Shown here in pieces: positions 2,774-30,969 of a stretch of DNA of 34,412 nt (position 1 is the stretch's first letter; each line of letters begins with the position of its first letter). The notes beneath the pieces are model-generated. The model saw only the letters and a list, made by a program, of their open reading frames with translations. It was not told where the DNA came from and did not search any database. Source of the stretch: a virus; IMG/VR virus record IMGVR_UViG_3300045455_000034, positions 1 to 34,412 of that record; one strand, given 5' to 3'. The position numbers were made by a program, and so were the translations under genes.

Positions 2774-3631
2774 TTATCCTTTCTGTATGAAATAGACTAA
2801 TGCAAATGGAGGTTCATACGCAGCAGCATTGGTATCAACCACGTCATGATCATGTGCTCCACTACTGGATGTTTGTCCACTGGTGGAATGGGTATGATTC
2901 CCGGCTGCGACGGAATGTACACCGGTCGAGAAACCCTGATTGGCAGTGGCTGTGGCATTGGACAATGAACCACCGTATGAATGCGTATGACCTCCGCCGG
3001 ATGCAGCTTTACTGTTGCTATGCTGGTGATTGGCGGCTCCCGCACTTTGACCAACATCGCTATCAAGGTTAGCCCCAAAGATAAATTGGCCGCGCAAATC
3101 GATTCTCCCGCCTAATCCGTCACAAATATTCCATCCCGCTGGAATTTGTGCAATGGGCAGCACAGTCATGACAATCACGCCATTGGGAATGGCGCTGCCT
3201 GATACTCTCCGAATCCAATACAAACGCTTCGATGGCGGCAAACCCATAACAGTATTGGTATCCAACAAGGTGTGTGAGTGATTCCCTCCAGAGCCGGTGG
3301 ATGCCAACCAGCTCGAATGGGTATGTTCACTTGCGATCGATGAGCCGCCTCCAGCAGGACCAATCTCTACGATCGAGCTTGCGCCGCTTTGTGTGCCCAC
3401 CTCAGCCGTGTGTGTGTGATTTGCAACGGCATTCATCGTTGGGTTTGTGTGAAGGTGCGTATTCTCTCCGATTGGTGTTTCGACAATATCATCCGGTGTT
3501 GCACCCAGAATATAAGCATCCTTTGTCGGAGCATAGATCGACCAGTCTGCAGGCAACGCAGATGCCACACCATGCCATAGTACAATTGCGTCAATCAGGC
3601 TACCAGAAGAAGGGTTTTGAATGACAATCAC
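2774..3631 (-). CDS. tail fibre with two tandem collar-like modules
   Basis: 285 residues with two collar-type units. The first half has a degenerate unit (LPADWSIYAPTKDAYILGA). The second has a good match (IPAGWNICDGLGGRIDLRG and FIFGANLDSDVG). Both carry His-pair clusters such as NHTHTAE, SEHTHSS, NHQHSN and GGHTHS. A GTG start overlaps the previous stop (GTGA) with GGAG five bases upstream, suggesting translational coupling. The role as a host-recognition fibre is inferred from the collar motif and its place between two paralogous fibre genes. Confidence 0.75.
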   Translation of the reverse strand: MIVIQNPSSGSLIDAIVLWHGVASALPADWSIYAPTKDAYILGATPDDIVETPIGENTHLHTNPTMNAVANHTHTAEVGTQSGASSIVEIGPAGGGSSIASEHTHSSWLASTGSGGNHSHTLLDTNTVMGLPPSKRLYWIRRVSGSAIPNGVIVMTVLPIAQIPAGWNICDGLGGRIDLRGQFIFGANLDSDVGQSAGAANHQHSNSKAASGGGHTHSYGGSLSNATATANQGFSTGVHSVAAGNHTHSTSGQTSSSGAHDHDVVDTNAAAYEPPFALVYFIQKG

Positions 3632-4218
3632 GGCAACTCCGCTAAAATGATAACATCAAGCCCGCGTACACCAGTACCGGCGCCATCTACATCTACTCGT
3701 ATTCTCTCGCCCGTAACCAAATTCTTTTGGGCAGCAGCCACTACAGCAGGCACAGCAGCAGTGTAGCTGTTAAATTCTCCCTGATCGATTGTAGCCGGAG
3801 TACTCAGTATGTCGGAGGAGCGGGAAAGATTATGCAACTGGACAGTAACTACACCTGCGGATGATGGCGTATAAACTGCAATATGCACCGAGGTAATATT
3901 CATACCATTGACAGCCGCAGGAACAGTGAAAATCATTCTCCCGTCGCCTACACTAAGCGAGGCATCATCAGACAACACTTTCAGGTAGATCGTCTCACGA
4001 GATACATTCACCATGAGAGTATCCAATGAATCCACGCCGTTTTCGAGGTTGTTCAACCTGGTGGCGGTGATAGCTGTACCCGGTGTTGTGATGGTGGTTG
4101 CCGGAGTGATTTCCACTTCTGCATGAATGATCGATGCACCCTCAACGATACGATATTTCACTGGCGTCGAAGCAGGTATTTCATCGATCCAGTTCGTTTT
4201 CACATATTGCTTCTGCAT
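3628..4218 (-). CDS. tail fibre / receptor-binding protein, paralogue of the gene at 1724-2335
   Basis: 196 residues. Residues 1-70 (KTNWIDEIPAS, then TPGTAITATRLNNLENGVD) repeat the N-terminal anchor of the downstream paralogue. The C-terminal part is a different beta-rich domain (GMNITSVHIAVYTPSS, TGERIRVDVDGAG). ATG with GGAGG eight bases upstream; TAATG overlap with the previous gene. One 10/11 copy of the dispersed palindrome lies inside (3800-3810). Probable adhesin; the receptor is unknown. Confidence 0.65.
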   Translation of the reverse strand: MQKQYVKTNWIDEIPASTPVKYRIVEGASIIHAEVEITPATTITTPGTAITATRLNNLENGVDSLDTLMVNVSRETIYLKVLSDDASLSVGDGRMIFTVPAAVNGMNITSVHIAVYTPSSAGVVTVQLHNLSRSSDILSTPATIDQGEFNSYTAAVPAVVAAAQKNLVTGERIRVDVDGAGTGVRGLDVIILAELP

Positions 4219-14067: not shown

Positions 14068-14166
14068 CGTCCTGAGGTGGGAAGGCACCCCCCACGCCCT
14101 TGAAAGAGGAGAGATGCTGACGTAGTGCCAGTGGACGGGACAAAAGACCGGAAACGGTCTTTTTTT
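14068..14166 (+). ncRNA. candidate structured noncoding RNA, about 99 nt
   Basis: Bounded by the promoter above and an intrinsic terminator: AAAGACCG (14143-14150), GAAA tetraloop, CGGTCTTT, then seven T. Between them three helices can form: CGTCC/GGACG (14068-14072 with 14133-14137), GGCAC/GTGCC (14084-14088 with 14125-14129) and GTGGG/CCCAC (14077-14081 with 14091-14095). The last two interlock as a pseudoknot. No protein is encoded; the only start near a GAGGAG box gives three codons. It matches no ncRNA family that I recognise. It is convergent with the head gene, whose stop overlaps its terminator. Confidence 0.55.
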
Positions 14167-16342
14167 ATTTGATCTTGAGATATTTAGATTTAAGTGTTCC
14201 ATCGGCATAAAATAAATCTTTCCAGTTTGCTTCGTGAATCGTAGTAATTTGATGAAAACCACTTGGTGTTTTGCTCAAGCTAACCGCCACAATCATGAAC
14301 CGGTCTTCTATTTTCCCACCAGGATATAACTCGGAAACAAGCGTGATTGAATTATAACCATCTCGTCTTTGACGAATCGTCTTCTCAATAAAATTGGGCG
14401 ATTGTATCGCTTTTACAAGTCCTTCTTGATTCTTTTCGAGCCATTCCAATCGATATCTATGTTTCGGATCGGAAAGATGACTCGCGGAAAACTTATTATA
14501 AATAACCGGTTTTGGTGTAATAAATTTCTTCCCCGGTTCCATTTCTGAAAAATACTTAGAAACATCTCCCAAATCTGTAACCTGTTGATATTCCCCTGAC
14601 CGAAAATCAATCTTCGGAGCTTTTATTGACACATTTGGATGATAGCCAATTCTTTCCCGTTCATACTGCCTTCCCAACCTCGTTTGTTTCGTGAAATCCC
14701 GCATTCTGGCTTGCCACTCTCGCACCTTGCCCCACTCATACTCAGTATCAAGCTGCGCCGCCTTCAATGCCCCTTCTTGCCGTTTCCAGTAACGAATCTT
14801 TCGCTCAATTTCTCGTTGTTGCTGCGTTGCCTCATAAACGCTAATTTCCTGACCATTATAGGTAACGGTTTTGTTCACATAACTTTCAAGCTCAGCTTTT
14901 GAGTAAGCATTCTCAGAAATACCCTCGAAAAATGGATAGAAACTATGACGGCAATTATGGATTACAATGTCATTAGCAAAGTACCAGCCACCTTCTGTTT
15001 CGAGGTTATAAACATGGACAAAAGAACCTTGCGTAGATTTCCGCTCGATGAAAATGATGTTATCCAACTCTACAATTCCGGGGTATCCACTACAACTATC
15101 AAGGAGAAATACGGGTGTTCCCTGAAAGCGGGAATTGAAGCAATCCCGCAAAAAGCCATCTGGAAATATAACATCGACCTCGCCATTGGAAACGTCGCCG
15201 TGGAAGTAACCGGCAGAGGAAGGAAACCGGACTATATTCCCATTTACAGAGAGAGAATCAAATATATCTTGAATTCTGGTTTCTCCCTGGTCTATATTTG
15301 GGCTTCCACCGCTTATCCGGTCAAAGTAGGAGCGGCAGATTACATTATCTCCTTTTGTCAGCAGACCAGCCGCGATCCATCCCTTGTTGGTCAATATAGG
15401 GTGATTGGGTGTACAGGAAAGCTCCTTGCCTCCGGCAGTGTGCAGGATAATGATTTCACCGGAATATTCACGGCGATACCCGGCACATATAGCCGGACCT
15501 GACACAACCGTTTCGCCAACGACACAGTTCCAACCCATCAACCCTTCACCGCTGCCATAACCCGTTTTCTCGATAAAACTCGGATATTCAGCATGAGTGC
15601 CTGACCTGGAATAGACTTTTCCCTGCCACCCCTCGTGATTGGCCGGCCCCGTTCCAGTATTACGAGCGCCGATGTGAGCAGATACAGCAACCAGATCGAT
15701 CCCCATTTCATCAGCACGCGCTTCCTGGAGCTTTCCAACTGTTTGATTGACTCCGGTCAATACAGTTCGCCGCATGGCAACATCCAAATGGTCTTGACGA
15801 CCACTAAAATGGATCACCGGTAATCCTTTGTCAGCCACATCCTTAACTGCCTGACGAATTGCCGTATTGTAATCAAAAGCCCCACTGGTTATTTGCATAT
15901 ACGCCAGGTCAGCAGCATCAATAAAAGCATTTTGTCCGCTAATTGCCGTAGTCATGGTCAAGTTTTTCATAATGCCCTGGGTTTTATTCAATCCAGCAGC
16001 CAAAACTTGTTTCATCGCCGGGGATAAATTGAGAGGAATAGGCTGAAGGCCGGCAGCCTTATAAATTCCATCGTCAAATGTCATCGCTTTTACACCGGCT
16101 TTTTCAAACATGGCTTGTAATTCCCCACTTGTTTTGCCAGTCAAAATCGTCAGCTCAGATAAAATGTTTTCGTATAACTTGCCGCTCTCCGATAGCCGTT
16201 GCATCTGCCAGGCCGCCGTAGAACTGGCAAAATCCAACTTTCCCAACCGCCGCGCAATATCTATAATGACCGAATCAGCATACTCAGTATAAAGGGTAAT
16301 CAGGCGTTGCGGCAGCGCATCGAGCTGGTCGGAGGTGAGCAT
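14165..16342 (-). CDS. phage head morphogenesis protein (Mu gpF-like) interrupted by an intein
   Basis: 725 residues: a 534-residue minor head protein with a 191-residue intein. The N-extein (1-272) is the helical Mu-F-like region with the FSGRQDHLDVAMRRTVLTGV block and HIGARNTGTGPANHEGWQGK. The intein sits inside the family's conserved GWN/CRH motif; after splicing GWN-CRHSFYPF is restored. The C-extein ends in about 120 residues (ITPKPVIYNKFSASHLSD, IRQRRDGYNSITLVSELY, FHQITTIHEANWKDLF) resembling PBECR-type RNase domains found on phage head proteins; that part is tentative. It follows the portal with a TAATG overlap. Two exact palindromes lie within (14738, 16280). Confidence 0.85.
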   Translation of the reverse strand: MLTSDQLDALPQRLITLYTEYADSVIIDIARRLGKLDFASSTAAWQMQRLSESGKLYENILSELTILTGKTSGELQAMFEKAGVKAMTFDDGIYKAAGLQPIPLNLSPAMKQVLAAGLNKTQGIMKNLTMTTAISGQNAFIDAADLAYMQITSGAFDYNTAIRQAVKDVADKGLPVIHFSGRQDHLDVAMRRTVLTGVNQTVGKLQEARADEMGIDLVAVSAHIGARNTGTGPANHEGWQGKVYSRSGTHAEYPSFIEKTGYGSGEGLMGWNCVVGETVVSGPAICAGYRREYSGEIIILHTAGGKELSCTPNHPILTNKGWIAAGLLTKGDNVICRSYFDRISGGSPNIDQGETRIQDIFDSLSVNGNIVRFPSSAGYFHGDVSNGEVDVIFPDGFLRDCFNSRFQGTPVFLLDSCSGYPGIVELDNIIFIERKSTQGSFVHVYNLETEGGWYFANDIVIHNCRHSFYPFFEGISENAYSKAELESYVNKTVTYNGQEISVYEATQQQREIERKIRYWKRQEGALKAAQLDTEYEWGKVREWQARMRDFTKQTRLGRQYERERIGYHPNVSIKAPKIDFRSGEYQQVTDLGDVSKYFSEMEPGKKFITPKPVIYNKFSASHLSDPKHRYRLEWLEKNQEGLVKAIQSPNFIEKTIRQRRDGYNSITLVSELYPGGKIEDRFMIVAVSLSKTPSGFHQITTIHEANWKDLFYADGTLKSKYLKIK
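14954..15526 (-). mobile_element. mini-intein (191 residues) in the head protein gene
   Basis: Encoded residues 273-463 of the precursor. All splicing blocks are visible: block A begins CVVGETVVSG with Cys1; block B has SCTPNHPILTNKGWIAAGLL with the TxxH; block F is VHVYNLETEGGWYFAND; block G is VIHN followed by Cys+1, with the penultimate His and terminal Asn. Splicing should therefore work. No LAGLIDADG or HNH domain is present in the sense frame. The central part (AGYFHGDVSNGEVDVIF) belongs, from memory, to a conserved segment of phage head-gene inteins with no known splicing role. The opposite strand of this same DNA carries a nuclease-like ORF. Confidence 0.92.
15014..15502 (+). CDS. antisense-nested Vsr-like homing endonuclease candidate inside the intein
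   Basis: 162-residue ORF on the strand opposite the intein and wholly within its DNA. ATG preceded by GAGG with eight bases spacing. Residues 12-36 (DENDVIQLYNSGVSTTTIKE onward) look like a helix-turn-helix. Residues 50-96 look like a Vsr/DUF559 PD-(D/E)xK core: WKYNIDLAIGNVAVEVTG with candidate acidic residues D55 and E64, then RERIKYILNSGFSLVYIW. The tail (AADYIISF, GQYRVIGCTGKLLASG) also reads as real protein. Its codons are in exact register with the sense codons, a phase in which chance ORFs are favoured, so homology is the key test. If real, it supplies the homing activity the intein lacks. Confidence 0.65.
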   Translation: MDKRTLRRFPLDENDVIQLYNSGVSTTTIKEKYGCSLKAGIEAIPQKAIWKYNIDLAIGNVAVEVTGRGRKPDYIPIYRERIKYILNSGFSLVYIWASTAYPVKVGAADYIISFCQQTSRDPSLVGQYRVIGCTGKLLASGSVQDNDFTGIFTAIPGTYSRT

Positions 16343-17748
16343 TACACACCACGAAATAGATCGGCAACTTGAGGTTGTTCAGCCTGAATCTCTGCTATTT
16401 TTGCTTTAGCAGTTATTTCATCCTCATCCATATTACGCATTCGAAATTCGATTTTGCTCATCAACCCTTGCTGCACCAATCTCATGTCCTGTTGAAACCG
16501 GGCATCTTTGTCGATGATTACACTGTCATCAAAGGCAAAAATGGTTGAATATGACCCACGTGGCGCTAGATTGCCCAAAGTCGCCCATATATCCATTGCC
16601 CAAAGCAATTGTTCTAACGCATTCTGAAGCGTCTTCTGAGTATCAACGATCGTTGCATATGTGCGCTGGCGAGATATCTTGATTTCGGTTGCAGTCTTAT
16701 CAATCTGTTGTGGATCACTCAAAGTGCCATAAGCAAGCCCGCAAGTGTATTCGATCCGTTTTAGAATTGCATCCAGGCCGGCTAAATAATTTTGTTCTCG
16801 GATCGTAGGCGTCCATTCGTGAAACATTTCTTCATCAGAAACCTGGCCACCTTGATTTAGCGTTCGATATAAGCGCTTGTTGGGAAGAATAGGCTTGCCT
16901 TTTTCATCTTTACCAAAAGCCAGCACGTCTACATACAATGCCCGATTACCGCTTTCGAACTCCCACAATAAATCAGACCATAATCCGTCTGCTTGTTTGA
17001 TTAAGTCAATGGCACGAGCATAACAGGACACACCTAACGGGCTGGTTGGATCGATATTGTTCGCCTGTGGAAACCGGAAATAAGCAAACAACGGTTGATC
17101 GACGCCCGTAATCATTGCCTCTGGTTGAATATCTGCCCATTCCGCAACCTCACCAAGCGGAATTTGTACCCCCAAAGTATCCCGTGAGGTGCTTCTGAAT
17201 GCCATATTTCTAATTTCGCATCCGGAATCGGTCATGGCATGAGATTCCAGACGCGTATAATACCTATTACCTGCTATCTTTTGATCGACAAACACACACG
17301 CGGTGATGTTGCCATTGGAATCAAATCTCACCGGGTAAAACATATCAGCCTGAACGAAATCGACAGCGATCTGGTTGCCATCGATATATGGTTTAAGCAT
17401 CAACCCACCTTTAGCGCAACCATATTCCACCTGCTGCCGCAATTTAGGCAATACTCGTTCAAACTGGAGCGCTAAATAGTCTGCTCGGGGGCTGCCTTCG
17501 ATGGTCACATCCATTTCAATAGTAACCGCCCGCGCAATTTCACCGGCGATGGCCGCTGCCAGGCTCAAACTTTTCACATGGGTATCCAGCCAGGGCGCTT
17601 TATTTTCGTACATCGCCGACCACAATTGCAATGCCTCAGCCATAACTGACGACACTGCAACATCAACTTTTAATGCGGTTTTCACAGTTGACTGAGTAAA
17701 CATCTTTTTGATGACCTCCCGAATGAAATCTAAAATCCTCTGGAACAT
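16342..17748 (-). CDS. portal protein
   Basis: 468 residues of A118-type portal. Visible: an N-terminal helical start, VDFVQADMFYPVRFDSNGNI, FAYFRFPQANNIDPTSPLGV, then AIDLIKQADGLWSDLLWEFE and the C-terminal IEYTCGLAYGTLSDPQQIDK with TATEIKISRQRTYATI. It would form the dodecameric portal through which the terminase pumps DNA. Follows the terminase stop by two bases; AAGAGGA lies eight bases upstream of the ATG. Confidence 0.9.
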   Translation of the reverse strand: MFQRILDFIREVIKKMFTQSTVKTALKVDVAVSSVMAEALQLWSAMYENKAPWLDTHVKSLSLAAAIAGEIARAVTIEMDVTIEGSPRADYLALQFERVLPKLRQQVEYGCAKGGLMLKPYIDGNQIAVDFVQADMFYPVRFDSNGNITACVFVDQKIAGNRYYTRLESHAMTDSGCEIRNMAFRSTSRDTLGVQIPLGEVAEWADIQPEAMITGVDQPLFAYFRFPQANNIDPTSPLGVSCYARAIDLIKQADGLWSDLLWEFESGNRALYVDVLAFGKDEKGKPILPNKRLYRTLNQGGQVSDEEMFHEWTPTIREQNYLAGLDAILKRIEYTCGLAYGTLSDPQQIDKTATEIKISRQRTYATIVDTQKTLQNALEQLLWAMDIWATLGNLAPRGSYSTIFAFDDSVIIDKDARFQQDMRLVQQGLMSKIEFRMRNMDEDEITAKAKIAEIQAEQPQVADLFRGV

Positions 17749-17750
17749 GA

Positions 17751-19535
17751 TTATGATCCTCTTCGTCGCCAGATAAGATTTGTGGCGTACCTGGTTGCAT
17801 CAATGAAGTGGTTATCCCGATCTGGATATTCACTGATGAAATTGCCATCCGGATCCTGCTCCAGCTCATAGTTGATAAACTCTTCAGCAGCATACGGACA
17901 ACGCTCATGATCAATCACAATCGCAGCCAAAGATTGCAGCCACTTCATGGAATATTTAACACTCTCAGGACCTTTCTCAGCGCCGCGGCAGGTTAGGCCA
18001 TACTCACGATAATCAGCTACACTCTTTGGTTCAGCCGAATCCGAAATGATCAAGTCCGATGGTAATACATGCTTATCGCTGATCAACATATCGGCTGTTT
18101 GACGATTAGACGCCTTAAGCGCACGCAGCTCATCATAGATATACAGCGTCAACCTGGCTGCATCATAATGGCATTTCACCCATGCATACGGATCCGGATA
18201 ATAACCCCAGTCGTTACCCATTAGAACATGGTCAAACTGAGAGATTTCATCATCAGTAATTTTGCGGAATTGGACATTTTCGAAGACCAAACCACCAGTA
18301 CCATTAGCAATTCCCAGGTATTCGTGCTCGTAGGCTTTAGGATTGATCACCTTCAAATGATCAGCTTCTTCCAAGAAGACTTTACCCAACCATTCAGGAG
18401 GAACTTCCAAATAGCAGCTCTGATGCTGATACTGAGTATTCTTGGGGATTTTTACGTACTTATTTGCCCAATTCGCTGCTGTCCGTGGCGGGTTGAATGA
18501 TTTGAAAATATAGGCCAGGTCTCCGCCACGAATTACGCTTTGCTCGATCTTGCGAATTGCCTCTTCACCATGAAATTGATCGAGTTCTTCGAACCATAGG
18601 ATTCCGATATAGCCAAATGCCGGCTTTATTGATTTAATCTTCCCTGGATCATCCGCGCCTCGAAAATAGATTTTCTGGCCAGTAGGCAAGTATGTTATTT
18701 CCAACGGCGAAAGCGTGCACTTGAACTCATTATCTAACCCCAATTCGCTGATAGACCATAGAAATTGGGAATAAACACTGTCTTTGAGCGTATTGGCCAC
18801 TTGACGAGCTGCCAGCGCATGCATCTCTGGATTATTTTTCAACAAATAGAGAATAACCAGTGAGACAAATGTTGATTTTGTCGAACCTCGCCCGCCATAA
18901 AATAGATACTCAGTATGTTGATGGTCTCGGATATCCCGATACGCGTTGAGAAATTGCGGAGAAATCAAATCAGCGGGAAGAGAAAACGAAGCTGCGCCAG
19001 CAGCCAGCCGTTCTTCATCGGTGAAAATCCGCATGTGTTTTCCGAGCATCATCATCGCTGTTTGTGGATCGTGCAATCCCAAACTGACAGAATTCGTTTT
19101 TCCTGTCGATGTGGCAACTCGCTTGACCAGGTGCCCGCGCTCTTTCAACGCCCGTTCGTTGATATAAACCATACGCCCACCTTTTTCGGTCTCCACAAAG
19201 TCACTGATACTAGCTCGTCCCATTTGTGAAAGCCTGGCAAGCAATTCTGCCTCCCCCATTATCTGTTCACGCCACTTCTTATCAGCCTGATCGATGACCC
19301 ATTTATCCCAGGCTTCAGCGCGAGGCCACCAATCATCTTCGTCGGCCATTCGCCGCCAGGACCCAGGAGCATTCTTGCCTGGTATTTTTCCCTGCTGCGC
19401 CCGCACCAGTTTGTATGCACCATTCAATGTCCGTCCAGGTCCCATCAACCGGAAAATATTGAACCACGAATGCCTGACGTATGCCTCCCCATCTCGCCGA
19501 TCCCAAGGTTGACGCTCATCAATATCGCGTGACAT
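17751..19535 (-). CDS. terminase with fused small- and large-subunit regions
   Basis: 594 residues from the ATG at 19535 (a TTG nine bases up is in frame; neither has a clear SD). Residues 1-185 resemble a small subunit: GPGRTLNGAYKLV, WWPRAEAWDKWV, and the typical closing segment LHDPQTAMMMLGKHMRIF. From about residue 190 it is a PBSX-type large subunit: Walker A GGRGSTKS (about 214-221), Walker B ILWFEELDQF, coupling motif FNPPRTAANWANKY, and nuclease aspartates in GNDWGYYPDPYAW, ISDSAEPKS and DNHFIDATRYA. One chain could thus recognise, pump and cut DNA. Two exact palindromes are inside, one encoding HTEY next to Walker A. Confidence 0.88.
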   Translation of the reverse strand: MSRDIDERQPWDRRDGEAYVRHSWFNIFRLMGPGRTLNGAYKLVRAQQGKIPGKNAPGSWRRMADEDDWWPRAEAWDKWVIDQADKKWREQIMGEAELLARLSQMGRASISDFVETEKGGRMVYINERALKERGHLVKRVATSTGKTNSVSLGLHDPQTAMMMLGKHMRIFTDEERLAAGAASFSLPADLISPQFLNAYRDIRDHQHTEYLFYGGRGSTKSTFVSLVILYLLKNNPEMHALAARQVANTLKDSVYSQFLWSISELGLDNEFKCTLSPLEITYLPTGQKIYFRGADDPGKIKSIKPAFGYIGILWFEELDQFHGEEAIRKIEQSVIRGGDLAYIFKSFNPPRTAANWANKYVKIPKNTQYQHQSCYLEVPPEWLGKVFLEEADHLKVINPKAYEHEYLGIANGTGGLVFENVQFRKITDDEISQFDHVLMGNDWGYYPDPYAWVKCHYDAARLTLYIYDELRALKASNRQTADMLISDKHVLPSDLIISDSAEPKSVADYREYGLTCRGAEKGPESVKYSMKWLQSLAAIVIDHERCPYAAEEFINYELEQDPDGNFISEYPDRDNHFIDATRYATNLIWRRRGS

Positions 19536-19547
19536 GGCAATCAATCA

Positions 19548-20522
19548 TTACACAAGATGTGAAACACCATCAAAGCGCATCGCTGACCAGCCACGTTCGT
19601 GGCGTACCCATATTTCATCCCCACGAACTGTATCGCCAGCCGAAAGCATGCCTGTTACCGGATATCGTATACCTGGTCCTGACCGCACACGTAGATTGTC
19701 GGTCACAACTCGCAGCGCTGAGAATTCGCTCGTCTGCTGTGGTTGAGATGCTGCCGGAGTTGGAGTTGGCTCCGGAGCTGGGCTGATGCTCCAACGATAA
19801 TCTCGAATCACATCCCACAAATCACTGTGACGACGAGTATGTTCCCACACCCAGAAATTGCATCCCTCGCAAGTTTGTTGAGCTGTAATCATAAACTCCA
19901 AAATCTGATTTGCGGTTGGCCGCCAGCCGTGTTCCTGAAATGCCGCCCCAGTCGGGATAATCGGTCGCTGCACCAGGCTTGCCTGTCTAAACTGACGGAT
20001 TGACTCACGCAACTGTGCACCCGAATTGGTCGCTCGCATCCAGTACACCTGGGGAAGATTAAGGTCGCAATGCTCCAGGAAACGATTGAATGGAAACTCC
20101 CGATGCAAATTAGGAAAACGATAGCTCGACAATCCTATAGGCAGGTCTCTCAAACCCGCTCGCAGCCGGCGCATATAATGACCCGCTTGTCCAGGCCGAT
20201 TTTTATACTCCACTTCGGCATTTACTACAAAGCCATCCACGCCCAATTCCAAACAGCGCCGGATGGCAATATCCGCTTCACGTTCGGGGTGTTGCCCATA
20301 CACATATTGCCAGCCCCACACATGGATGCCTGCAGATTTCAACACATCAACTACTGGTTTTGTTGGGTCAATCTGCATGTATGGGAAAGAACGAACACCA
20401 TCCGCAATTTTGACCAAAACATGAGATAGCCCGGCAGATCGAGCAGTAAACGCAATTGTCTGTGCATTACCGTTCTCACTCCGGCTGATGTTCCACATGT
20501 ACATACCTTTACCCAGTATCAT
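19548..20522 (-). CDS. endolysin: TIM-barrel-like glycosidase plus SH3b domain
   Basis: 324 residues. The N-terminal about 230 residues look like a (beta/alpha)8 glycosidase: KGMYMWNISRSENG, SHVLVKIADGVRSFPYMQID, GIHVWGWQYVYGQHP, LGVDGFVVNAEVEYKNR (likely acidic catalytic region), LPQVYWMRATNS. A Pro-rich linker (SPAPEPTPTPAAS) leads to a bacterial SH3 domain (LRVRSGPGIRYPVTGMLSAG) that would bind peptidoglycan. The ATG at 20522 has GGAGG six bases upstream; another ATG sits three bases earlier. Follows two membrane-protein genes, forming a lysis cassette placed before the terminase. Confidence 0.8.
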   Translation of the reverse strand: MILGKGMYMWNISRSENGNAQTIAFTARSAGLSHVLVKIADGVRSFPYMQIDPTKPVVDVLKSAGIHVWGWQYVYGQHPEREADIAIRRCLELGVDGFVVNAEVEYKNRPGQAGHYMRRLRAGLRDLPIGLSSYRFPNLHREFPFNRFLEHCDLNLPQVYWMRATNSGAQLRESIRQFRQASLVQRPIIPTGAAFQEHGWRPTANQILEFMITAQQTCEGCNFWVWEHTRRHSDLWDVIRDYRWSISPAPEPTPTPAASQPQQTSEFSALRVVTDNLRVRSGPGIRYPVTGMLSAGDTVRGDEIWVRHERGWSAMRFDGVSHLV

Positions 20523-20886
20523 CATTTTCCTCCCAATCGCCTGGCTCCCAACATGGTTTCGCGTTCATCTCACCAATTTGCCGGATCAAAATTCCAATCC
20601 CATTCATCAAATCAAGCACACGATGCGCATACCGGGACAACTGCCGCTGCAATCGCTTAATTTCGCGGTCCTGCCTGGTTACATGCTGTTCAAGTTCCGC
20701 TAAACGCGTTTTCAGTGGTTCTAGTAACGATACGGCAGCATCAGCGATCGCATCTGCAGCATCCGCTTTATTTTTTACCCGAGTGGACAGGTATACAAGC
20801 AACCCACCAAAAATTGCGCCGACCGCCCCAATGATCATTTCGATGATTTTTTCTGACATAGATTTACCCGTAGGAGCGTATATCAT
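20509..20886 (-). CDS. small membrane-anchored coiled-coil protein of the lysis cassette
   Basis: 125 residues from the ATG at 20886 (GGAGG nine bases upstream). One transmembrane segment near the N-terminus (MIIGAVGAIFGGLLVYLS), then KNKADAADAIADAAVSL and a long coiled coil (RLAELEQHVTRQDREIKRLQ), ending in an acidic tail. Located between the holin-like gene and endolysin, so a holin accessory or spanin-like role is plausible. Overlaps both neighbours. Confidence 0.6.
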   Translation of the reverse strand: MIYAPTGKSMSEKIIEMIIGAVGAIFGGLLVYLSTRVKNKADAADAIADAAVSLLEPLKTRLAELEQHVTRQDREIKRLQRQLSRYAHRVLDLMNGIGILIRQIGEMNAKPCWEPGDWEENDDTG

Positions 20887-21226
20887 GTTCATTCACCTCC
20901 CGCTGCCTGGCCGGGAAATATGTGCCGATCAATTGGTGTATGTAACTTGCTCCCATACCAATCGATACTCCGGTAACAATCACTCCAAACGCGGTAGGTT
21001 TGACCGGTGTTTCAACCACCTGGCCGGCCAGATAGATCACATCAAATTGATAGACCCATGCGCCAGCAACTCCGGCTGCTACAGCCAAATAGACCAGCGC
21101 CCATTTATACGGCTGCAATACCGGCACATGATCAACAATCCGGCCAAACAGCGCCTCTACCAGCGTTTCAACCAGAAAGGCCAGCAGCAAAATAACGCCC
21201 AAAGTGCCCATAACTTCTCCAAACAT
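20864..21226 (-). CDS. putative holin
   Basis: 120 residues with three hydrophobic segments: GVILLLAFLVETLVEALF, WALVYLAVAAGVAGAWVY and FGVIVTGVSIGMGASYI. Size, topology and position upstream of endolysin support a holin. No specific family is recognised. ATG with GAGAGGAG upstream, immediately after the T-rich tail of the terminator at 21245-21295. Confidence 0.6.
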   Translation of the reverse strand: MFGEVMGTLGVILLLAFLVETLVEALFGRIVDHVPVLQPYKWALVYLAVAAGVAGAWVYQFDVIYLAGQVVETPVKPTAFGVIVTGVSIGMGASYIHQLIGTYFPARQREVNEHDIRSYG

Positions 21227-21244
21227 ATCGATCTCCTCTCAAAA

Positions 21245-21295
21245 GAAAATAAGAATGCCCGGCACATGCCTGAACGTCTCAAGCGTGTGCCGGGC
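21245..21295 (-). terminator. hairpin terminator upstream of the lysis genes and downstream of the CRISPR-like repeat
   Basis: Ten-base perfect stem (GCCCGGCACA at 21257-21266 with TGTGCCGGGC at 21286-21295) followed on the - strand by ATTCTTATTTTCTTTT. It would end transcripts from the zinc-ribbon gene that carry the repeat. The preceding box at 21290-21307 is nearly the same (16 of 18 bases) as the one beside the terminator at 13873-13933. Confidence 0.75.
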
Positions 21296-21330
21296 GGTCA
21301 ACTTCGGCTCTGTCACATTGTGACGACCGT

Positions 21331-21359
21331 AGAATCACCCCCACGTGTGTGGGGAAAAC
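21331..21359 (-). CRISPR. solitary type I-E-like CRISPR repeat (candidate racRNA / decoy)
   Basis: A single 29-base unit on the - strand: GTTTT, a 6-bp stem CCCCAC/GTGGGG with loop ACAC, then the 8-base tail GTGATTCT. This is the layout of type I-E repeats (Cas6e hairpin plus 8-nt handle) and closely resembles those of E. coli and Streptococcus thermophilus CRISPR4, from memory. No second repeat or spacer array is nearby. It begins on the base after the TAA of the zinc-ribbon gene and is followed by a 36-base structured linker (CGGTC/GACCG enclosing GTCAC/GTGAC) and a terminator, as expected for an RNA anti-CRISPR. Confidence 0.75.
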
Positions 21360-21602
21360 TTATTCAGTTGCACCTATTCTAGCACACCTTATTCGATAAA
21401 TCAATTCATGCAAACGATAATCGCGGCTGTCGAAGTGGAACAGCTTGCGACATACCCCACAAACACCATGCACATAAGCAACATCGCTAACACCAAGTCG
21501 CAGCCATACCCGCTGACGAACACGGATCAATTGGCCTATTTCTGAGCCACACTCACTACATCTCAAACTGGAATCCAATGCTAGCAAATTCTCATCACTC
21601 AA
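21360..21602 (-). CDS. small zinc-ribbon-like protein
   Basis: 80 residues with two Cys pairs, CSEC (near residue 15) and CGVC (near residue 48), separated by a basic strand region (IGQLIRVRQRVWLRLGV). This suggests a zinc ribbon. It starts with TTG, supported by GGAGG five bases upstream. Its stop directly abuts the CRISPR-like repeat, which would be its 3' untranslated region. Function unknown. Confidence 0.6.
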   Translation of the reverse strand: MSDENLLALDSSLRCSECGSEIGQLIRVRQRVWLRLGVSDVAYVHGVCGVCRKLFHFDSRDYRLHELIYRIRCARIGATE

Positions 21603-21614
21603 TTAGACCTCCAT

Positions 21615-22490
21615 TTATCCCTTCGATAAATAAAATATCGCCTCACGATTGGTAATGCCGTAAAGCCGGGAGTAAAGATTGATCACATCTAATGGTTTCG
21701 AAGTGCAACCGGCATAGCAGCCGCAAATCCCACGATGGATATCGATCCAAAAAGACGGATTATGGTCATCATGAAAAGGGCACTTATCCACATACCAACG
21801 GCTATTGCTCGAAGTGCTTTCAGCTTGCGGAAAGAACTCCAAAAGGGAATGTTTCTCACGCGCCTGGTCAACGAGCGCACGAGTGGGATCAGGCACACGT
21901 TCCGCAGAAGCCCACGGATCGGAATTTGGAACTTGAACAGTATTAGCAAAAAATGCCGGTAGATACTCAGTATTGGAGAGGAGCAGAGATGCTGGGATGA
22001 TATCGGATAAAGCCTCTGCCATAACAATATGGTTGTTAGGATTTATGGGCTGATAGTTAATTCCGGACGGGTGCACTGAAGGCGGTATAAGCACATAACC
22101 ATTTCTGGCCTTAATATCGATTCCGGGCAGTTTTCGGTTTTGATCTGCCTGGGGTAAATAGACATAGATGTGGATGCCTCTTGCTGTTTTGACCTGGTAT
22201 GTTCGTTCGGCAATAAATTGGGAGATGCCACCACGTTTAGAGGTCCACAATAGCCAGTGGGTATATGTAGAAAGGTTATCAAAATCGATCACGACTAGAT
22301 TATTCCAGCCAACTATGAGACCGATATTATGTAAATTTCCGGTGAACCACCGTTGTAACTCAGTATAAGAGGGGAGCCGTGTTTTGAAATCGTGCCAATT
22401 TAAATCCGGTTTTTTGTCCCGGAATTTAATAGGGATGGTTGCGATTCCGATATTTTTCCAAAAAAGAGCTGTTTCAAGAATGGTTGTCAT
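21615..22490 (-). CDS. primase-polymerase with C-terminal CHC2-type zinc finger
   Basis: 291 residues. The N-terminal 190 residues fit a bifunctional DNA primase/polymerase (Prim-Pol) domain: GIATIPIKFRDKKPDLNW, the metal-binding LVVIDFDN, ARGIHIYVYLP, and IKARNGYVLIPPSVHPSG. The C-terminal part has a CHC2-like zinc finger (KCPFHDDHNPSFWID, then CGCYAGCTSKPLDVINLY), as in DnaG. It would prime phage replication beside the helicase gene and the iteron region. ATG at 22490; a GTG at 22499 is also possible. One exact palindrome encodes NTEY (21963). Confidence 0.85.
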   Translation of the reverse strand: MTTILETALFWKNIGIATIPIKFRDKKPDLNWHDFKTRLPSYTELQRWFTGNLHNIGLIVGWNNLVVIDFDNLSTYTHWLLWTSKRGGISQFIAERTYQVKTARGIHIYVYLPQADQNRKLPGIDIKARNGYVLIPPSVHPSGINYQPINPNNHIVMAEALSDIIPASLLLSNTEYLPAFFANTVQVPNSDPWASAERVPDPTRALVDQAREKHSLLEFFPQAESTSSNSRWYVDKCPFHDDHNPSFWIDIHRGICGCYAGCTSKPLDVINLYSRLYGITNREAIFYLSKG

Positions 22491-22499
22491 GATTTTCAC

Positions 22500-23069
22500 T
22501 TATCAAAAAGCCTAACTTTCTTTCATCGTGAAAGAATGTGTACCAACTGTACCAACCTGTCCAACCTTTTCCTATAAATTTATAAATTACTACTGTTACT
22601 AGAACATAATTTACAGCTTTAACAGCATTTAGGTTGGACGGTTGGTACAGTAAGGTATAATTTGAGGCATAATTTTTTTATCATTCTTTAACATTACTCT
22701 GGTGGAAACCCTTTTTTTGCTCATTATTTTCTAGAAAAAACCTGTACCAACCTGCGCATAGCCAGACCCAACTTTCGCATAGCCAGACCCAACCTGTACC
22801 AACCTTGAAAAACAACTGTTCTAAAAAAGCAATAATTACGGTAATTACACCTTCGAGTATGCTAAAATAGCGCAATTTCTTCATAGAATATTAGTAAAAT
22901 ATAACCAAAGTAATAAAATCATAACCGAATAGATAGCAAAAACAAATAAATATTGCATAATTAGAACAGTAAATAACAAAATCGTGTTATTTAAGTTATG
23001 TAATTGATATAAATGTGCAAAATATTGGCAAAATGCAAATAAAATATGCATGGCGATCCTTTTTTTGAC
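22500..23069. other. AT-rich intergenic iteron region, probable replication origin
   Basis: About 570 bases without a credible gene between helicase and primase. A perfect 8-bp inverted repeat (22518-22536) precedes the primase. TGTACCAAC-type units occur in tandem at 22539-22566, inverted at 22631-22650, and again at 22741-22752 and 22793-22804. The last pair flank two copies of an 18-base repeat (22755-22772, 22776-22793; period 21). From 22820 to 23060 the DNA is very AT-rich, suitable for unwinding. Iterons plus an unwinding element next to replication genes suggest an origin. A TTGGAC-16-TATAAT promoter-like pair (22634-22661, +) overlaps one iteron. Confidence 0.65.
22741..22804. repeat. 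iteron cluster: two 18-bp direct repeats flanked by GTACCAACC units
   Basis: CGCATAGCCAGACCCAAC occurs twice with a 21-base period. The pair is bracketed by CCTGTACCAACC on both sides, the same core found at 22539-22566 and inverted at 22631-22650. The two helical-turn spacing suits cooperative binding of an initiator protein. Confidence 0.85.
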
Positions 23070-24557
23070 CTATGGCACCACAATCGGAGCTATTTTGATA
23101 CCGGCATAACCCCAAGCTCGTTGACCCAAACTATTCGTCCTTTTACGCCTCTGCAAACCTAATTTTGTAGCTACCGCTGCTAACGCCATAGCATTCCCGC
23201 GGCTGTTTCCCTTCAAATTGCCCTCCGTTGGATTTTCAAGAACAGAAAGAATATCCGTTGTAGCTGTCCATTTTGTCTGATCCGCCGGATCAATGATGAA
23301 ATATTTCATCAGCAGATTTTCGATCGGGTCGATAACCCCGTAATATTCGGCAATTTCATTTGCTTTTATCTGTTCATCCGGAGCAATGCGATAATCTTCT
23401 TTGGCCAGGTACGCCGCCATTGCCTCCGCCCAAAGAAGACCGGGATCGAGCCCTGCATATCCCCAATCAATACTGAGTATGTTACTGACGAGAAAACGGC
23501 GATTGCCGGTTGGATCAGAAAAAATGCCGGTGCTGTTGTTGATGGTGCCAATAAAACTTGCCATTGCCGGCTTTATGATATCCACCCGCCCATAAGGTTT
23601 TCTGACCGTAATTTTTCGAGTAGTCAAAAACGACTTCAGCGCCTCATAATCCGCTTTGCGGGTAGTCGCACCGAGCTCTGATACCTCCCAAATCCAATAT
23701 CTGGCCAATCGAATGATGCAATCTTTATTGTTCGGATCGATCGAGCCTTCGGTAAAATAAGCGGGCAGCGGTTTCGCCAGCCAGCGTACAAATTCACTTT
23801 TGCCAATGCCCTGTTTTCCATCCAATATCAACATCGGATTTTGTTGGGCCTCGAAAACCTTTGCACATGCGCCGATTAGCCATTTTCGCAGCCATATCGA
23901 AAACATCCCGAATTCATCTGTGAAATAATCACAGAGATTTTGAATATATGGCTGACCATCCCAGGATAGTGAAGATAAATAGTCCTTTACTGGATGATAC
24001 CGATGCTTCCAGGCATAAGCTCGATATGCTTCCTCGCCGGTAGTGACCTGGTAAAAGCCGGCATCTCGCAATTGAGAACGGATAGTATCGATGTGGCCTT
24101 CTTCCAGAGGTTCCCCATTGATTTCGATCGTGTCATCACATTCGTTTAGTTTAAAGTCATAACCAAACCGCTTCAATTGGGTCAAGTAATCTTTGGTTTT
24201 GAACCGCTTCTTGTTGCCTTTTTGCTGCTCGAAATCGAGTATCTTTTTGATTTGAACACTTAAAGCTTTTGTCAGAGAGACTTGCACATCCCCCGAATAC
24301 GCATGCAGTGAGTTTGAATATGCCGTATCGATATCAACCCCTGAAGAAACCTCCTGAAACATGTGTGTAAATATGTTTTTCCAGGGCTGCCCAATCGGAG
24401 CCGCCTGGTTAGGTGTTTGCTTCAACGCTAACCAGGTAGCAATTAATTCCATGCCCTCGATAAAATCGACTTCTTGATTGAAAACCTGCTCGAGAACCGT
24501 TGCATCCTGGGGGAGAATGCCAGAATTGATGAGCGATGTGAAAAAGTTAGTCGTCAT
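23070..24557 (-). CDS. VapE/VirE-family replicative helicase (SF3-like ATPase)
   Basis: 495 residues from the ATG at 24557. Walker A LILDGKQGIGKSEFVRW; the family block YWIWEVSELGATTRKADYEA, then KPYGRVDIIKPAMASFIGTI with the GTIN sensor, and GNRRFLVSNI. These match the virulence-associated E family used by phages and satellites as replicative helicase or initiator. The frame is open upstream to 24728, but that part overlaps a convincing small gene in another frame. A dispersed palindrome (24565-24575) occupies the place where a Shine-Dalgarno would lie, seven bases before the ATG. Confidence 0.88.
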   Translation of the reverse strand: MTTNFFTSLINSGILPQDATVLEQVFNQEVDFIEGMELIATWLALKQTPNQAAPIGQPWKNIFTHMFQEVSSGVDIDTAYSNSLHAYSGDVQVSLTKALSVQIKKILDFEQQKGNKKRFKTKDYLTQLKRFGYDFKLNECDDTIEINGEPLEEGHIDTIRSQLRDAGFYQVTTGEEAYRAYAWKHRYHPVKDYLSSLSWDGQPYIQNLCDYFTDEFGMFSIWLRKWLIGACAKVFEAQQNPMLILDGKQGIGKSEFVRWLAKPLPAYFTEGSIDPNNKDCIIRLARYWIWEVSELGATTRKADYEALKSFLTTRKITVRKPYGRVDIIKPAMASFIGTINNSTGIFSDPTGNRRFLVSNILSIDWGYAGLDPGLLWAEAMAAYLAKEDYRIAPDEQIKANEIAEYYGVIDPIENLLMKYFIIDPADQTKWTATTDILSVLENPTEGNLKGNSRGNAMALAAVATKLGLQRRKRTNSLGQRAWGYAGIKIAPIVVP

Positions 24558-24747
24558 ACTTCGAATACTGAGTATTGGCTGTGATTTTGCATTCTGGGCA
24601 ACCTTTGCGATCCGAAGTGCCAAAGCGATGCCGCGCCCAATCGTTCCAGGCGTCCGCAGCGCTTGCACTGTGAGGTGTTTCTGTTTCGATCTGGCAATAC
24701 CGCTCATATAGAGCTTTGCCGACCTCACACAGTTGATATACTATCAT
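24547..24747 (-). CDS. small zinc-finger-like protein overlapping the helicase start
   Basis: 66 residues. ATG with AGAGGA five to six bases upstream. Sequence: VYQLCEVGKALYERYCQIE, then DAWNDWARHRFGTSDRKGC with CPEC near the C-terminus. The W-x-x-W-x-x-H plus Cys pair pattern is typical of small phage zinc proteins. Overlaps the previous gene by 23 bases and the helicase by 11. Function unknown. Confidence 0.6.
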   Translation of the reverse strand: MIVYQLCEVGKALYERYCQIETETPHSASAADAWNDWARHRFGTSDRKGCPECKITANTQYSKYDD

Positions 24748-25084
24748 CGGCTTCCTCTAGCAGTGCAATGGCATACTGTGGAATTGAGTAACCCATAGCC
24801 TTTAATTCCCGGAGAAAGCTCGCGCACTCATCTGACGTATTACAATAAAAGGTCATTCCGTCATACGGCAATCCGATGATTTGCTGGTTTGCATTCCGGA
24901 CCCATTCACGTGTTGCATCCCAATAGGCAAGCCAGGCTTTTACATCGGTTATTGGAGGCTCGATAGGTCTTGGTTGATCACTTACATATCGAATTTTGGC
25001 GATATTGATGACAAAGGCATCATAACCCTCGTATACATATACATCCGACTGATAACAATCTGACGACCAACGGCAGTAGCTCAT
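24725..25084 (-). CDS. conserved phage hypothetical protein (MSYCRWSS type)
   Basis: 119 residues starting MSYCRWSSDCYQSDVYVYEG, an opening I recognise from many phage proteins of unknown function. The rest is mainly helical, with WLAYWDATREWVRNANQQII and a YDGMTFYCNTSDECASFLRE segment. ATGA overlap with the VWA gene upstream. No function is assigned. Confidence 0.7.
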   Translation of the reverse strand: MSYCRWSSDCYQSDVYVYEGYDAFVINIAKIRYVSDQPRPIEPPITDVKAWLAYWDATREWVRNANQQIIGLPYDGMTFYCNTSDECASFLRELKAMGYSIPQYAIALLEEADDSISTV

Positions 25085-25653
25085 GGTTTACTTCCAAGCA
25101 ATAGCCGTTCGATGCCTGCTTTTAACTCTTTGGCGCGGTCGATCGTGATCGATTGCCCGCCTGTAGCCGCAGCTAATCGCTCCAGGAAGTCTCTACCTGT
25201 GGGATTTGCTTCTGGTCCGACATAAATGACATTGATTTTATTTTGAAACGTCTGAGCGATTCTGAGCGTGTTCTGGGGGTCATCCGGTTGGCCATCACTG
25301 ATCAGAAAGAATTGCATTCCTGGAACATCGGCAATTTTTGCAAATGATAGTGCTTTGTCCATTCTTGTGCCGCCGTTGAAATTTACGGGCGTGCCGCTGG
25401 GACAGAATTGCACGTCGTCGCTAAAACTGATCACCGCTATCTTACCCGGCAAAGACTGCTGCAGAGCCGCCAGCTCGTCTGAGGCAACTTTATATCGGGA
25501 ACGCCCACCTCTGCTATCCTTGGTTGCCATAGAGCCGGATGTATCGACAAGGATCACATAATCCACATTGATAAACGATTCCGCAATACTTCTGTTGTTT
25601 TGTTTGGCCAGGGATGAAATGGATCCTGGCACAATCTGATACTGAGTATTCAC
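25081..25653 (-). CDS. von Willebrand factor A (VWA) domain protein
   Basis: 190 residues. A complete MIDAS metal site is visible: VDYVILVDTSGSM (DxSxS), GGTRMDKAL (Thr) and FLISDGQPDD (Asp). The Rossmann strands KIAVISFSDDVQF and INVIYVGPEANP follow the expected order, so this is a stand-alone VWA fold. In phages such proteins are uncommon; they usually act as metal-dependent adaptor or complex-assembly proteins. GTG start with GGAGG five bases upstream. A dispersed palindrome covers codons 2-5. Confidence 0.82.
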   Translation of the reverse strand: MNTQYQIVPGSISSLAKQNNRSIAESFINVDYVILVDTSGSMATKDSRGGRSRYKVASDELAALQQSLPGKIAVISFSDDVQFCPSGTPVNFNGGTRMDKALSFAKIADVPGMQFFLISDGQPDDPQNTLRIAQTFQNKINVIYVGPEANPTGRDFLERLAAATGGQSITIDRAKELKAGIERLLLGSKP

Positions 25654-25674
25654 TGTGACCTCCTCTTGTATTTT

Positions 25675-26418
25675 TTACCTTTGCATGACGATGGTTGTTG
25701 TGTACTTTTTCATCGAATTTACGTAGCATTCACGCGAGCAGTATGACTGGTACTGACGTTTTCGCGGCAGCCGAACGCCGCATCTACGGCAGACACTAGT
25801 CAGTACTGCGTAGCCCAACTCGCGATTGATCCGATCGACATCCGCCATGCCGCTGCGTTCGCGCTTATGCTCTGCGATTCGCTGCCGGTTGGCTTGGCGG
25901 CAGGAACGCCTATACTCCGCGAGCCGCTGCCGGTTGGCTTGGCGGCAGGAACGCCTATACTCCGCGAGCCGCTGCCGGTTGGCTTGGCGGCAGGAACGCC
26001 TATACTCCGCGAGCCGCTGCCGGTTGGCTTGGCGGTAGGAACGCCTATACTCCGCGATTCGCTGCCGGTTGGCCTGGTAGTAGGAGCGCTTATGCTCCGC
26101 GATTCGCTGCCGGTTGGCTTGGCGGTAGGAACGCATATACTCCGCGATTCGCTGCCGGTTGGCTTGGTAGTAGGAACGCATATACTCCGCGAGCCGCTGC
26201 CGGTTGGCTTGGTAGTAGGAACGCATATACTCCGCGAGCCGCTGCCGGTTGGCTTGGTAGTAGGAACGCATATACTCCGCGAGCCGCTGCCGGTTGGCTT
26301 GGCGGCAGGAACGCCTATACTCCGCGAGCCGCCGTTTGTTACACTCTGCGCATCGTTTCGGTCGAGGTCCATATTTGCTCGATTGGTCAAACTCTACGCC
26401 GCAATCAATACAGATCAC
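25675..26418 (-). CDS. zinc-ribbon protein with about ten 15-residue helical repeats
   Basis: 247 residues from the GTG at 26418 (GGAGAGG five bases upstream; overlaps the previous stop as GTGA). Architecture: an N-terminal Cys4 ribbon (CIDCGVEF, RCAECNKRR), then about ten copies of RQRLAEYRRSCRQAN with L/I, Y/H, R/M, C/Y and R/Y variation, and a C-terminal Cys cluster (SVCRRCGVRLPRKRQ, YCSRECYVNS). The repeats are Arg-rich and helical and may form an extended single helix that could bind nucleic acid. Near-identical DNA across units suggests recent expansion. No enzymatic function is assigned. Confidence 0.7.
   Translation of the reverse strand: MICIDCGVEFDQSSKYGPRPKRCAECNKRRLAEYRRSCRQANRQRLAEYMRSYYQANRQRLAEYMRSYYQANRQRLAEYMRSYYQANRQRIAEYMRSYRQANRQRIAEHKRSYYQANRQRIAEYRRSYRQANRQRLAEYRRSCRQANRQRLAEYRRSCRQANRQRLAEYRRSCRQANRQRIAEHKRERSGMADVDRINRELGYAVLTSVCRRCGVRLPRKRQYQSYCSRECYVNSMKKYTTTIVMQR
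25868..26338. repeat. 45-bp tandem repeat array, about ten copies
   Basis: The unit contains CGCTGCCGGTTGGCTTGG and ACTCCGCGAG elements and repeats every 45 bases, keeping frame. Most differences are single bases at a few positions, including synonymous sites, so the array looks recently homogenised. Copy number may vary between isolates and may be collapsed in short-read assemblies. Because the period is a multiple of three, long open frames appear on both strands here; these are side effects. Confidence 0.92.
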
Positions 26419-27236
26419 ACCCACCTCTCCACCAATTTATTAGCGCCAGCCGGCCAGCTAGTGACGAGAGTTTGGTCGCCACGAACAATATCATTCCACG
26501 CCAGTATTTTTTCAACTGTAAAGCGTCCCATTTTTTCTTGACCGTTTGCCATGATGTAGCCACAACGTAGTGGAGATCGATAACCATATCTGGTTACAGG
26601 CTGATCCTCGATCTGCTGTTTTCCCAAACTTGCAGCCATAGCCAATCCCGCATCATATTTTCTTCGCATTTGCGGATCGCTCAGTGTTTGATAGGCATAA
26701 TTGATTTGTTGAAATTGTTGCGTCGCATCGATTTCATGGCATACATCTGGATGCCATTGTCTGGCAAGCCTGCGAAAGGCGCTCTTTAACTCATCAGCGC
26801 TGGCTTGATGACTAATCCCTAAAACGGCATATAAGGTTATTTCTTGGGTTGGTGTGGGTGGACCGGCTTCGAACCAGTCTCGTAAAACTGTTTCGGGGAA
26901 GATAACAGACCACTGTCCATCAACCATCCCATATGCCGAGCGCGTGCCATCACCTCGATCTTTTGTGCTGCCCACGTAACGCACTTCAAGCAGCCTGATT
27001 TCAGATTTGCTAATCGCAGCGTTGATTTGAGGGAGATGTACCGATTCCCCTAAATATTTCTGGCACCAGTTCACTAAGTAGTGTCCGTGCTTGGGGTCGA
27101 TCAACCAGGCTTTGCGGTTTGCATCCCACCGGCGATCAGTATTTGGCAATGATTTAATGAGAGCTACCAATGTCGAATTGTATGGGCTATAAAAAACGTA
27201 TACTCCTTGATCAATGCTAATTTGAACACTACTCAT
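26415..27236 (-). CDS. HARP-like domain fused to a J-domain (DnaJ-type) protein
   Basis: 273 residues. Residues 1-65 (FYSPYNSTLVALIKSLPNT, RRWDANRKAWLIDPKH) resemble the HARP/HepA-associated module found on SNF2-type helicases. Residues about 133-200 form a J-domain: LYAVLGISHQASADELKSAF, ARQWHPDV with the HPD signature, and AYQTLSDPQMRRKYDAG. A further about 70-residue tail follows. It could recruit host DnaK to a phage replication or recombination complex, as lambda P and host DnaJ do; that role is inference. ATG with AAGGA eight bases upstream. Confidence 0.75.
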   Translation of the reverse strand: MSSVQISIDQGVYVFYSPYNSTLVALIKSLPNTDRRWDANRKAWLIDPKHGHYLVNWCQKYLGESVHLPQINAAISKSEIRLLEVRYVGSTKDRGDGTRSAYGMVDGQWSVIFPETVLRDWFEAGPPTPTQEITLYAVLGISHQASADELKSAFRRLARQWHPDVCHEIDATQQFQQINYAYQTLSDPQMRRKYDAGLAMAASLGKQQIEDQPVTRYGYRSPLRCGYIMANGQEKMGRFTVEKILAWNDIVRGDQTLVTSWPAGANKLVERWV

Positions 27237-27269
27237 GGTTATATTCCTTCCGCAATTTATGCCGCCCTT

Positions 27270-27596
27270 TTACACGAGCTTCTTTAACATTTCTATGCAA
27301 GTTTCCAGGTTATTTTTAAGAAAGGTCAAATGAAGTTCAATTTGCTCTAGCCGGTCTTTGCGATTAATAGAGCACACATAAGCATTACCTTCCCATTCAA
27401 AAAAAGGTAAATGAACTGCGTTGTCAGCTCGCTCACCAAGCGCCGCAATTGCATGATCTAAATACAATGGCATTGACACATTTAAAGCCAGATGTCCTAG
27501 TTCGACTTGCACATCCGCAATTTTGCGCACAAATTTAACTTCGAGCTCATGATCGATAGACTCTGTGTTTTCTACTTCAATAGTGTTTTTAACCAT
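27270..27596 (-). CDS. hypothetical early protein
   Basis: 108 residues from the ATG at 27596, preceded by GAGGAAAAT; the frame is open further upstream but would overlap the exonuclease gene by 110 bases. Contains VQVELGHLALNVSMPLYLDH and a helical C-terminus (RLEQIELHLTFLKNNLETCI). I do not recognise a family. The location suggests a recombination or replication accessory role. Confidence 0.55.
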   Translation of the reverse strand: MVKNTIEVENTESIDHELEVKFVRKIADVQVELGHLALNVSMPLYLDHAIAALGERADNAVHLPFFEWEGNAYVCSINRKDRLEQIELHLTFLKNNLETCIEMLKKLV

Positions 27597-29239: not shown

Positions 29240-29240
29240 A

Positions 29241-30664: not shown

Positions 30665-30969
30665 GTGCCTACCCCACATACTGAGTAACTGGGGTTGGCT
30701 GGAAAAGGAGAGAAGAGAGGAAACCAGTCAGCCCCGGGAATGTGTTGCCCCTTGTGGAAGCACAACAGGGATATACGCTTTGCCAACAGACCGGGTAAAT
30801 ATTCACTATTTGCTATCCGCACCCGCTGCATACATACACACCACAAGGGGCTTATGAAGTTGTTAAGCGCCGGTCTCTCCCGACTGTCGCTCTTATGCTG
30901 TTTCCCGCTTGTCTCAGAGTACGGGCTTTCCCTGCACGCCGTTGGGCCGGCAAGCCCTGCAGGTTCGCA

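Follow-up and report, generated by a model that had tools for sequence, protein, structure and literature searches.

A phage intein family with a probable homing endonuclease gene on the opposite strand, and its minimised member in a minor head gene

Introduction

Can one stretch of phage DNA encode a splicing intein on one strand and, codon for codon, a homing endonuclease on the other? The question is raised by a minor head gene in 34,412 nucleotides of viral DNA (IMG/VR record IMGVR_UViG_3300045455_000034, positions 1 to 34,412; the whole stretch is referred to here as the window). Its intein has on the opposite strand an open reading frame that an initial annotation, made from the letters alone, took for a homing endonuclease gene. 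Cases in which two conserved proteins overlap antisense over more than 250 codons are uncommon and tend to be met with doubt. We put a probability of about 0.85 on the intein of the window being a minimised member of a phage intein family whose homing endonuclease gene lies on the opposite strand in codon-for-codon register. It also seems likely that this is a widespread class of phage intein with a working endonuclease of this kind, in which a stretch of 600-1000 bp serves both proteins and intein block F doubles as the ribosome site and start codon of the nuclease gene.

Results

The host gene (14165-16342, minus strand; 725 codons) encodes a MuF-type minor head protein (Phage_min_cap2, PF06152, E=1e-102; phrog_581, E=6e-103), and is interrupted in frame by an intein of 191 aa (14954-15526, minus strand) with extein junctions GWN|C...HN|C. 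Cys1, the block B TxxH motif (here TPNH), block F (VYNLETEGGWYFANDIVIHN) and the terminal HN before Cys+1 are all present. The N-terminal splicing model TIGR01445 scores 28.4 bits, over its cut-off of 24.5; PF14890 reaches 25.6 bits, under a cut-off of 35.8 that was exceeded in two of seven scanned relatives, and TIGR01443, matching in the block F/G segment (14954-15013, minus strand), stays under cut-off at 14.4 bits. Scans with Pfam, PHROGs and NCBIfam found no in-frame LAGLIDADG or HNH domain in the window's sense protein, and from its motifs we infer a splicing mini-intein.

Several other features of the window deserve mention. Across the head region the window is about 95-98% identical to a relative, L001, but at the 3' end of their head gene (14173-14655) the two are strongly diverged, between flanks that are about 95% identical. 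L001 also jumps directly from window position ~16318 to ~32880 and then to position 1, skipping 16318-32880 as if its genome were much shorter or rearranged. Elsewhere, one ORF (29987-30679) reads by eye as an HNH-type, homing-like endonuclease and adjoins a second (29241-30005) that reads by eye as an ERCC4-like nuclease, and a short Arg/Tyr-rich unit (ANRQRLAEYRRS-like) is tandemly repeated at 25675-26541, with long open frames on both strands.

The antisense ORF (15014-15502, plus strand; 162 aa, termed P0001) lies wholly within the intein, each of its codons exactly opposite an intein codon. Its ATG at 15014 follows a GAGG (15002-15005) by an 8-nt spacer, and the whole signal (15002-15016, plus strand) is embedded in the sense codons for VYNLE, within the block F/G segment. 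The initial annotation had the ORF, its GAGG and ATG, the intein coordinates and the codon register right. It had also observed that TTA, CTA and TCA are missing from the overlap, which is so, though the codons concerned number 10 Leu and 16 Ser rather than 11 and 15. With the codon usage of the neighbouring genes, the chance of such an open frame is 0.0033, about four times the 0.0008 first estimated, and of 501 segments of 162 codons taken from the window's remaining genes, 2 are open in this frame. The single-locus statistic is therefore modest and, alone, only suggestive; it is the comparative evidence that settles the antisense frame as real.

The ORF retains part of a first helix-turn-helix (LDENDVIQLYNSGVSTTTIKEKYGCS; 15044-15121, plus strand), recognised by alignment to the relatives L111 and L112 and by model helices at residues 13-21 and 26-33. 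A nuclease core follows, PQKAIWKYNIDLAIGNVAVEVTG...RERIKYILNSGFSLVYIW (15146-15304, plus strand), the mirror of sense FHGDVSNGEVDV, placed by profile matches to 3r3p and 3hrl and by fold matches. P0001 by itself gave no Pfam, NCBIfam or PDB match of value, and the nuclease identity was reached only through its full-length relatives.

These relatives are numerous. A tblastn search with P0001 returned 122 phage records, and every match examined was antisense within a head-gene intein. In all 13 inspected genomes, from phages of Gordonia, Mycobacterium, Salmonella, Escherichia, Vibrio, Pseudomonas, Idiomarinaceae and Haemophilus/Aggregatibacter, an open antisense frame lies opposite the intein, without exception in register 0; in the record of vB_StyS-sam, part of it is annotated as a hypothetical CDS. 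Searching viral contigs and bacterial genomes with no seed but antisense proteins (by alignment subsets, the diverse 14-sequence alignment A1 being unsuited to the purpose) yielded 128 loci, with the same arrangement in all except L073, L098 and a few loci ending at contig edges. Nearly all the antisense ORFs of the roughly 120 viral and prophage loci are in register with an open intein-bearing ORF. What had been taken for a single oddity is thus one of a family of more than 100 such loci. Antisense stops number 0 in 4914 Leu and Ser codons against about 723 expected, a comparison that is partly circular, the frame having been defined as open.

The antisense protein has a median length of about 282 aa (103 non-redundant proteins), and the inteins fall into two size classes of about 270 and 320 residues, apparently with one or two helix-turn-helix units. 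Most sit directly before the Cys of the conserved MuF motif NC|RC. The Kagunaviruses KMB36 (L005) and Snoke (L010) have such inteins at two different head-gene sites, each empty where the other is occupied. Snoke's full-length antisense protein is encoded at 2156-2905 of L010. The residues before the second of these sites read PAHFG when it is empty, as in the PAHFG|CRST allele of KMB36, and PAHPN when it is occupied, a difference of the kind expected from co-conversion or from target selection. Two further loci stand apart in their host genes: L052 (2899-6858, minus strand) is a single ORF, apparently of fused portal and MuF domains, with two inteins, one of which reads like a LAGLIDADG intein while the other has the antisense nuclease; and L126 (481-5316, minus strand), on a 197-kb viral contig, is an intein host gene with an ADP-ribosyltransferase domain (ART-PolyVal, E=2e-34).

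Full-length members of the family exceed the Pfam gathering cut-offs for HTH_38, HTH_58 and HTH_7; one member reaches 21.6 bits for DUF559 (cut-off 20.6), and matches to Vsr and MTES_1575 are weak. The best profile match to a homing enzyme is to the catalytic domain of I-Bth0305I (3r3p; E=8.7e-8 with profile A6, 1.8e-4 with A1), and the endonuclease-like 3hrl is matched at E=7e-7. An AlphaFold2 model of the full-length member L017 (mean pLDDT 88.8) has a Vsr-like C-terminal domain, which superimposes on Vsr 1cw0 with Z 10.7 and rmsd 2.5 over 111 residues, on 3hrl with Z 10.3, on 1vsr with Z 10.1 and on I-Bth0305I with Z 9.7, the remaining matches being at or below 8.4. The Glu of helix 1 is conserved in 99 of 103 proteins, and the YNxD motif with its Asp and the Glu of the AVE motif in all 103; the family His position is His in only 64. 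The helix-1 Glu, the core Asp and the acidic and His positions that follow give the family an EDxHD-like set, matched to the E, D, H and D of I-Bth0305I by type of position rather than residue by residue. By these profiles and this model, then, the family protein consists of one or two helix-turn-helix units joined by a linker to a Vsr/I-Bth0305I-like nuclease with predicted cleavage activity, so that the first reading of the frame, as helix-turn-helix plus a Vsr/DUF559-like nuclease, proves right for the family.

Which strand is under selection can be asked directly, since the wobble base of a sense codon here falls opposite antisense position 1 and that of an antisense codon opposite sense position 1, so that constraint on one frame or the other should leave contrary patterns. 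In 14 independent pairs, the differences counted at antisense positions 1, 2 and 3 are 1212/615/818 in the N-extein. Opposite the DNA-binding region the counts are 541/385/870 (Fisher test against the extein, 4e-35) and opposite the nuclease core 277/165/375 (2e-14), variation being shifted to antisense third positions in both, while opposite the Hint N-terminal blocks the pattern is reversed (236/82/161). Protein identities agree: 0.64 for the antisense against 0.45 for the sense protein in the DNA-binding region, 0.67 against 0.54 in the core, but 0.58 against 0.69 in the tail, to which belongs the block B segment TPNHPIL (15392-15412 in the window, minus strand; mirror of antisense QYRVIGC). 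Which strand dominates therefore changes within a single intein: as read from these substitutions, selection follows the antisense protein in the DNA-binding and nuclease regions and the sense protein in the splicing blocks. The central FHGD...GEVDV segment of the intein is the codon mirror of the nuclease's NID...AVE, and the suspicion that it is kept for the antisense protein is borne out by antisense constraint in the relatives. Neither a lack of nuclease similarity, nor antisense stops, nor substitutions of a sense-only kind were thus encountered.

Two apparent cases of recent homing did not hold up. The low divergence between the inteins of L009 and L010 (Jersey/Kagunaviruses) is explained by the double constraint, because sites silent in both frames (dSS 0.63) have diverged like the synonymous sites of the extein. 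The similarity of the inteins of the window and L001 is matched by that of the entire head region.

The antisense start is built from block F codons. Its ATG lies opposite the His codon that immediately precedes VYNL, and its Shine-Dalgarno sequence opposite the VYNL Leu codon and neighbours, so that GGAGGTtrTAnACATG (a GAGGTTATAAACATG-type site) corresponds to HVYNLQ. With the exteins of the same genes, rather than ordinary inteins, as the control, relatives use CTC for this Leu in 73 of 89 cases, compared with 19.5% of extein Leu (binomial 9e-37), and CAT, giving ATG, for the His in 76 of 86, compared with 45% expected (6e-17). Judged by these codon frequencies, the start signal is conserved beyond the needs of the sense frame. 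A scan for an antisense promoter found no convincing candidate; the host gene lies in a minus-strand structural operon.

The window copy departs from its family in length. L112 and L111, the relatives nearest to it, show about 60% identity where they can be aligned and have some 136 extra codons between KYGCS and GIEAIPQKA, in which lie the second helix-turn-helix, the linker and helix 1 of the nuclease, Glu included. Aligning protein and DNA to these two, together with the helix-1 Glu column, places the approximate junction near residues 37-40 (15122-15133, plus strand). At the position that is His in 64 of 103 relatives the window protein has Lys, so that it lacks both the helix-1 Glu and the His of the EDxHD set. 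Its model (pLDDT 79) still finds 3hrl and 1vsr in Foldseek with probabilities of 0.75 and 0.72, helix 1 being missing. The best reading is that an in-frame deletion, shortening the two genes together, gave the window its mini-intein. The initial annotation was correct as to the type of nuclease, with the correction that the gene is a truncated derivative and not a complete one.

Over the core, the window and L111/L112 are 0.67-0.70 identical in the nuclease and 0.45-0.48 in the sense protein, antisense-type constraint which suggests that the window lineage probably spent most of its history with a functional nuclease. Since the second helix-turn-helix, the linker and the catalytic-type Glu kept by 99 of 103 proteins are lost, the antisense protein of the window is now probably inactive. 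L001 shares the deletion, and the 15 differences between the two are spread 5/5/5 over the codon positions, consistent with lost constraint, though they are few and about half of them lie in one cluster.

It is rather unlikely that the truncated protein still works, whether as a nickase, as the partner of another nuclease or as a DNA-binding regulator. The ORF, its start signal, one helix-turn-helix and the acidic core residues are all retained, the core of its lineage has been under antisense constraint overall, and L001 has the same form with its frame intact; against this must be set the missing parts, the even spread of the differences from L001, and the finding that it is the sole mini form of its kind among 103 proteins.

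L073 shows the reverse case. Here (2860-3849) a free-standing nuclease of the family directly adjoins a MuF gene that is not interrupted, and no intein frame is present. Several stops break up the mirror strand, whereas the nuclease frame, 330 codons long, is intact and is preceded by a GGAG and ATG of its own. The nuclease has thus been kept without any sense constraint. L073 is nested in the family tree (node supports up to 0.996) and retains EYRVIRG, the mirror of intein block B, which indicates descent from an intein-embedded ancestor. Its protein has an extra Cys/His-rich N-terminus and looks like an intein escapee.

Discussion

In the mechanism that we propose, the sense strand would be translated within the MuF-type head protein, from which the intein would splice itself out, leaving an essential protein intact, while the antisense strand would be translated from its own start within the block F codons. 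The helix-turn-helix array of the antisense protein would bind the head-gene target, and, by analogy with known homing, the nuclease would cut intein-less alleles near NC|RC and repair of the cut allele would copy the intein in. Two unrelated proteins encoded by the same bases would probably form one mobile element. In the window, an in-frame deletion of about 408 nt has removed the second helix-turn-helix, the linker and the helix-1 Glu.

The support for homing, namely the several insertion sites and the reciprocally empty sites of the Kagunaviruses, is circumstantial. The nuclease could be functional without being a homing enzyme, for instance an anti-competitor or defence nuclease that overlaps the intein by chance, and the free-standing gene of L073 beside a head gene would suit this. 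We consider it improbable, however, as the nuclease travels with inteins at several head-gene sites, including the two in the Kagunaviruses, and a helix-turn-helix array joined to an I-Bth0305I-like nuclease is the layout of a homing endonuclease. That the intein alone is coding, with favourable codons lending its mirror the look of a protein, is already contradicted: frames in this register do mirror each other, so that sense conservation alone yields some antisense similarity, and the C-terminal tail (QYRVIRG, mirror of TPNHPIL) is of this type, but the excess of antisense over sense identity in the DNA-binding region and core, the variation at antisense third positions, the curated helix-turn-helix families over cut-off with a confident Vsr-like fold and a PDB profile match, the codon bias at the start signal and the survival of the protein in L073 after the sense frame was destroyed all run counter to it.

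The closest known homing enzyme is I-Bth0305I, which is encoded in a group I intron and is likewise a multidomain protein with a C-terminal Vsr-like nuclease. The present family differs from this EDxHD enzyme in that its gene lies antisense within an intein, overlapping the intein's coding frame, and in having a helix-turn-helix array as the DNA-binding part. The nucleases of the Vsr mismatch endonuclease, DUF559 and MTES_1575 families are free-standing proteins of repair or restriction type, which the family resembles in fold and in mostly weak Pfam matches. With canonical LAGLIDADG and HNH inteins it shares the Hint splicing blocks A, B, F and G and its probable nature as a homing element, whereas its nuclease is a separate antisense gene on the same codons, outside the precursor protein.

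A 2025 preprint by Gosselin and colleagues is said to describe actinobacteriophage inteins of 'non-canonical architecture' and is cited for overlapping frames. We found no intein with an antisense endonuclease in the searchable literature, though that preprint may already include some of the Gordonia members. Homing endonuclease genes on the strand opposite the host gene are known from nuclear rDNA group I introns (PMC9548176), but those introns are non-coding RNA, while in the phage family the overlapped strand must encode a splicing protein. In phage ShiLan, a nuclease is hidden in a non-splicing insertion in a methylase gene that is also open in the host frame (PMC11855218); that nuclease, however, is an HNH enzyme in a shifted frame of the same strand, with no splicing domain and no detectable ribosome-binding site.

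With about 100 distinct sequences, a fixed register and a natural control in L073, selection on both strands of the same DNA becomes directly measurable in this family. It is also a testable system, in that the antisense gene can be stopped by changes that are silent in the splicing protein. If the reading given here is true, it adds an architecture to those of inteins and accounts for many phage inteins that seem to have no endonuclease, and other 'empty' inteins would be worth searching for further antisense nucleases.
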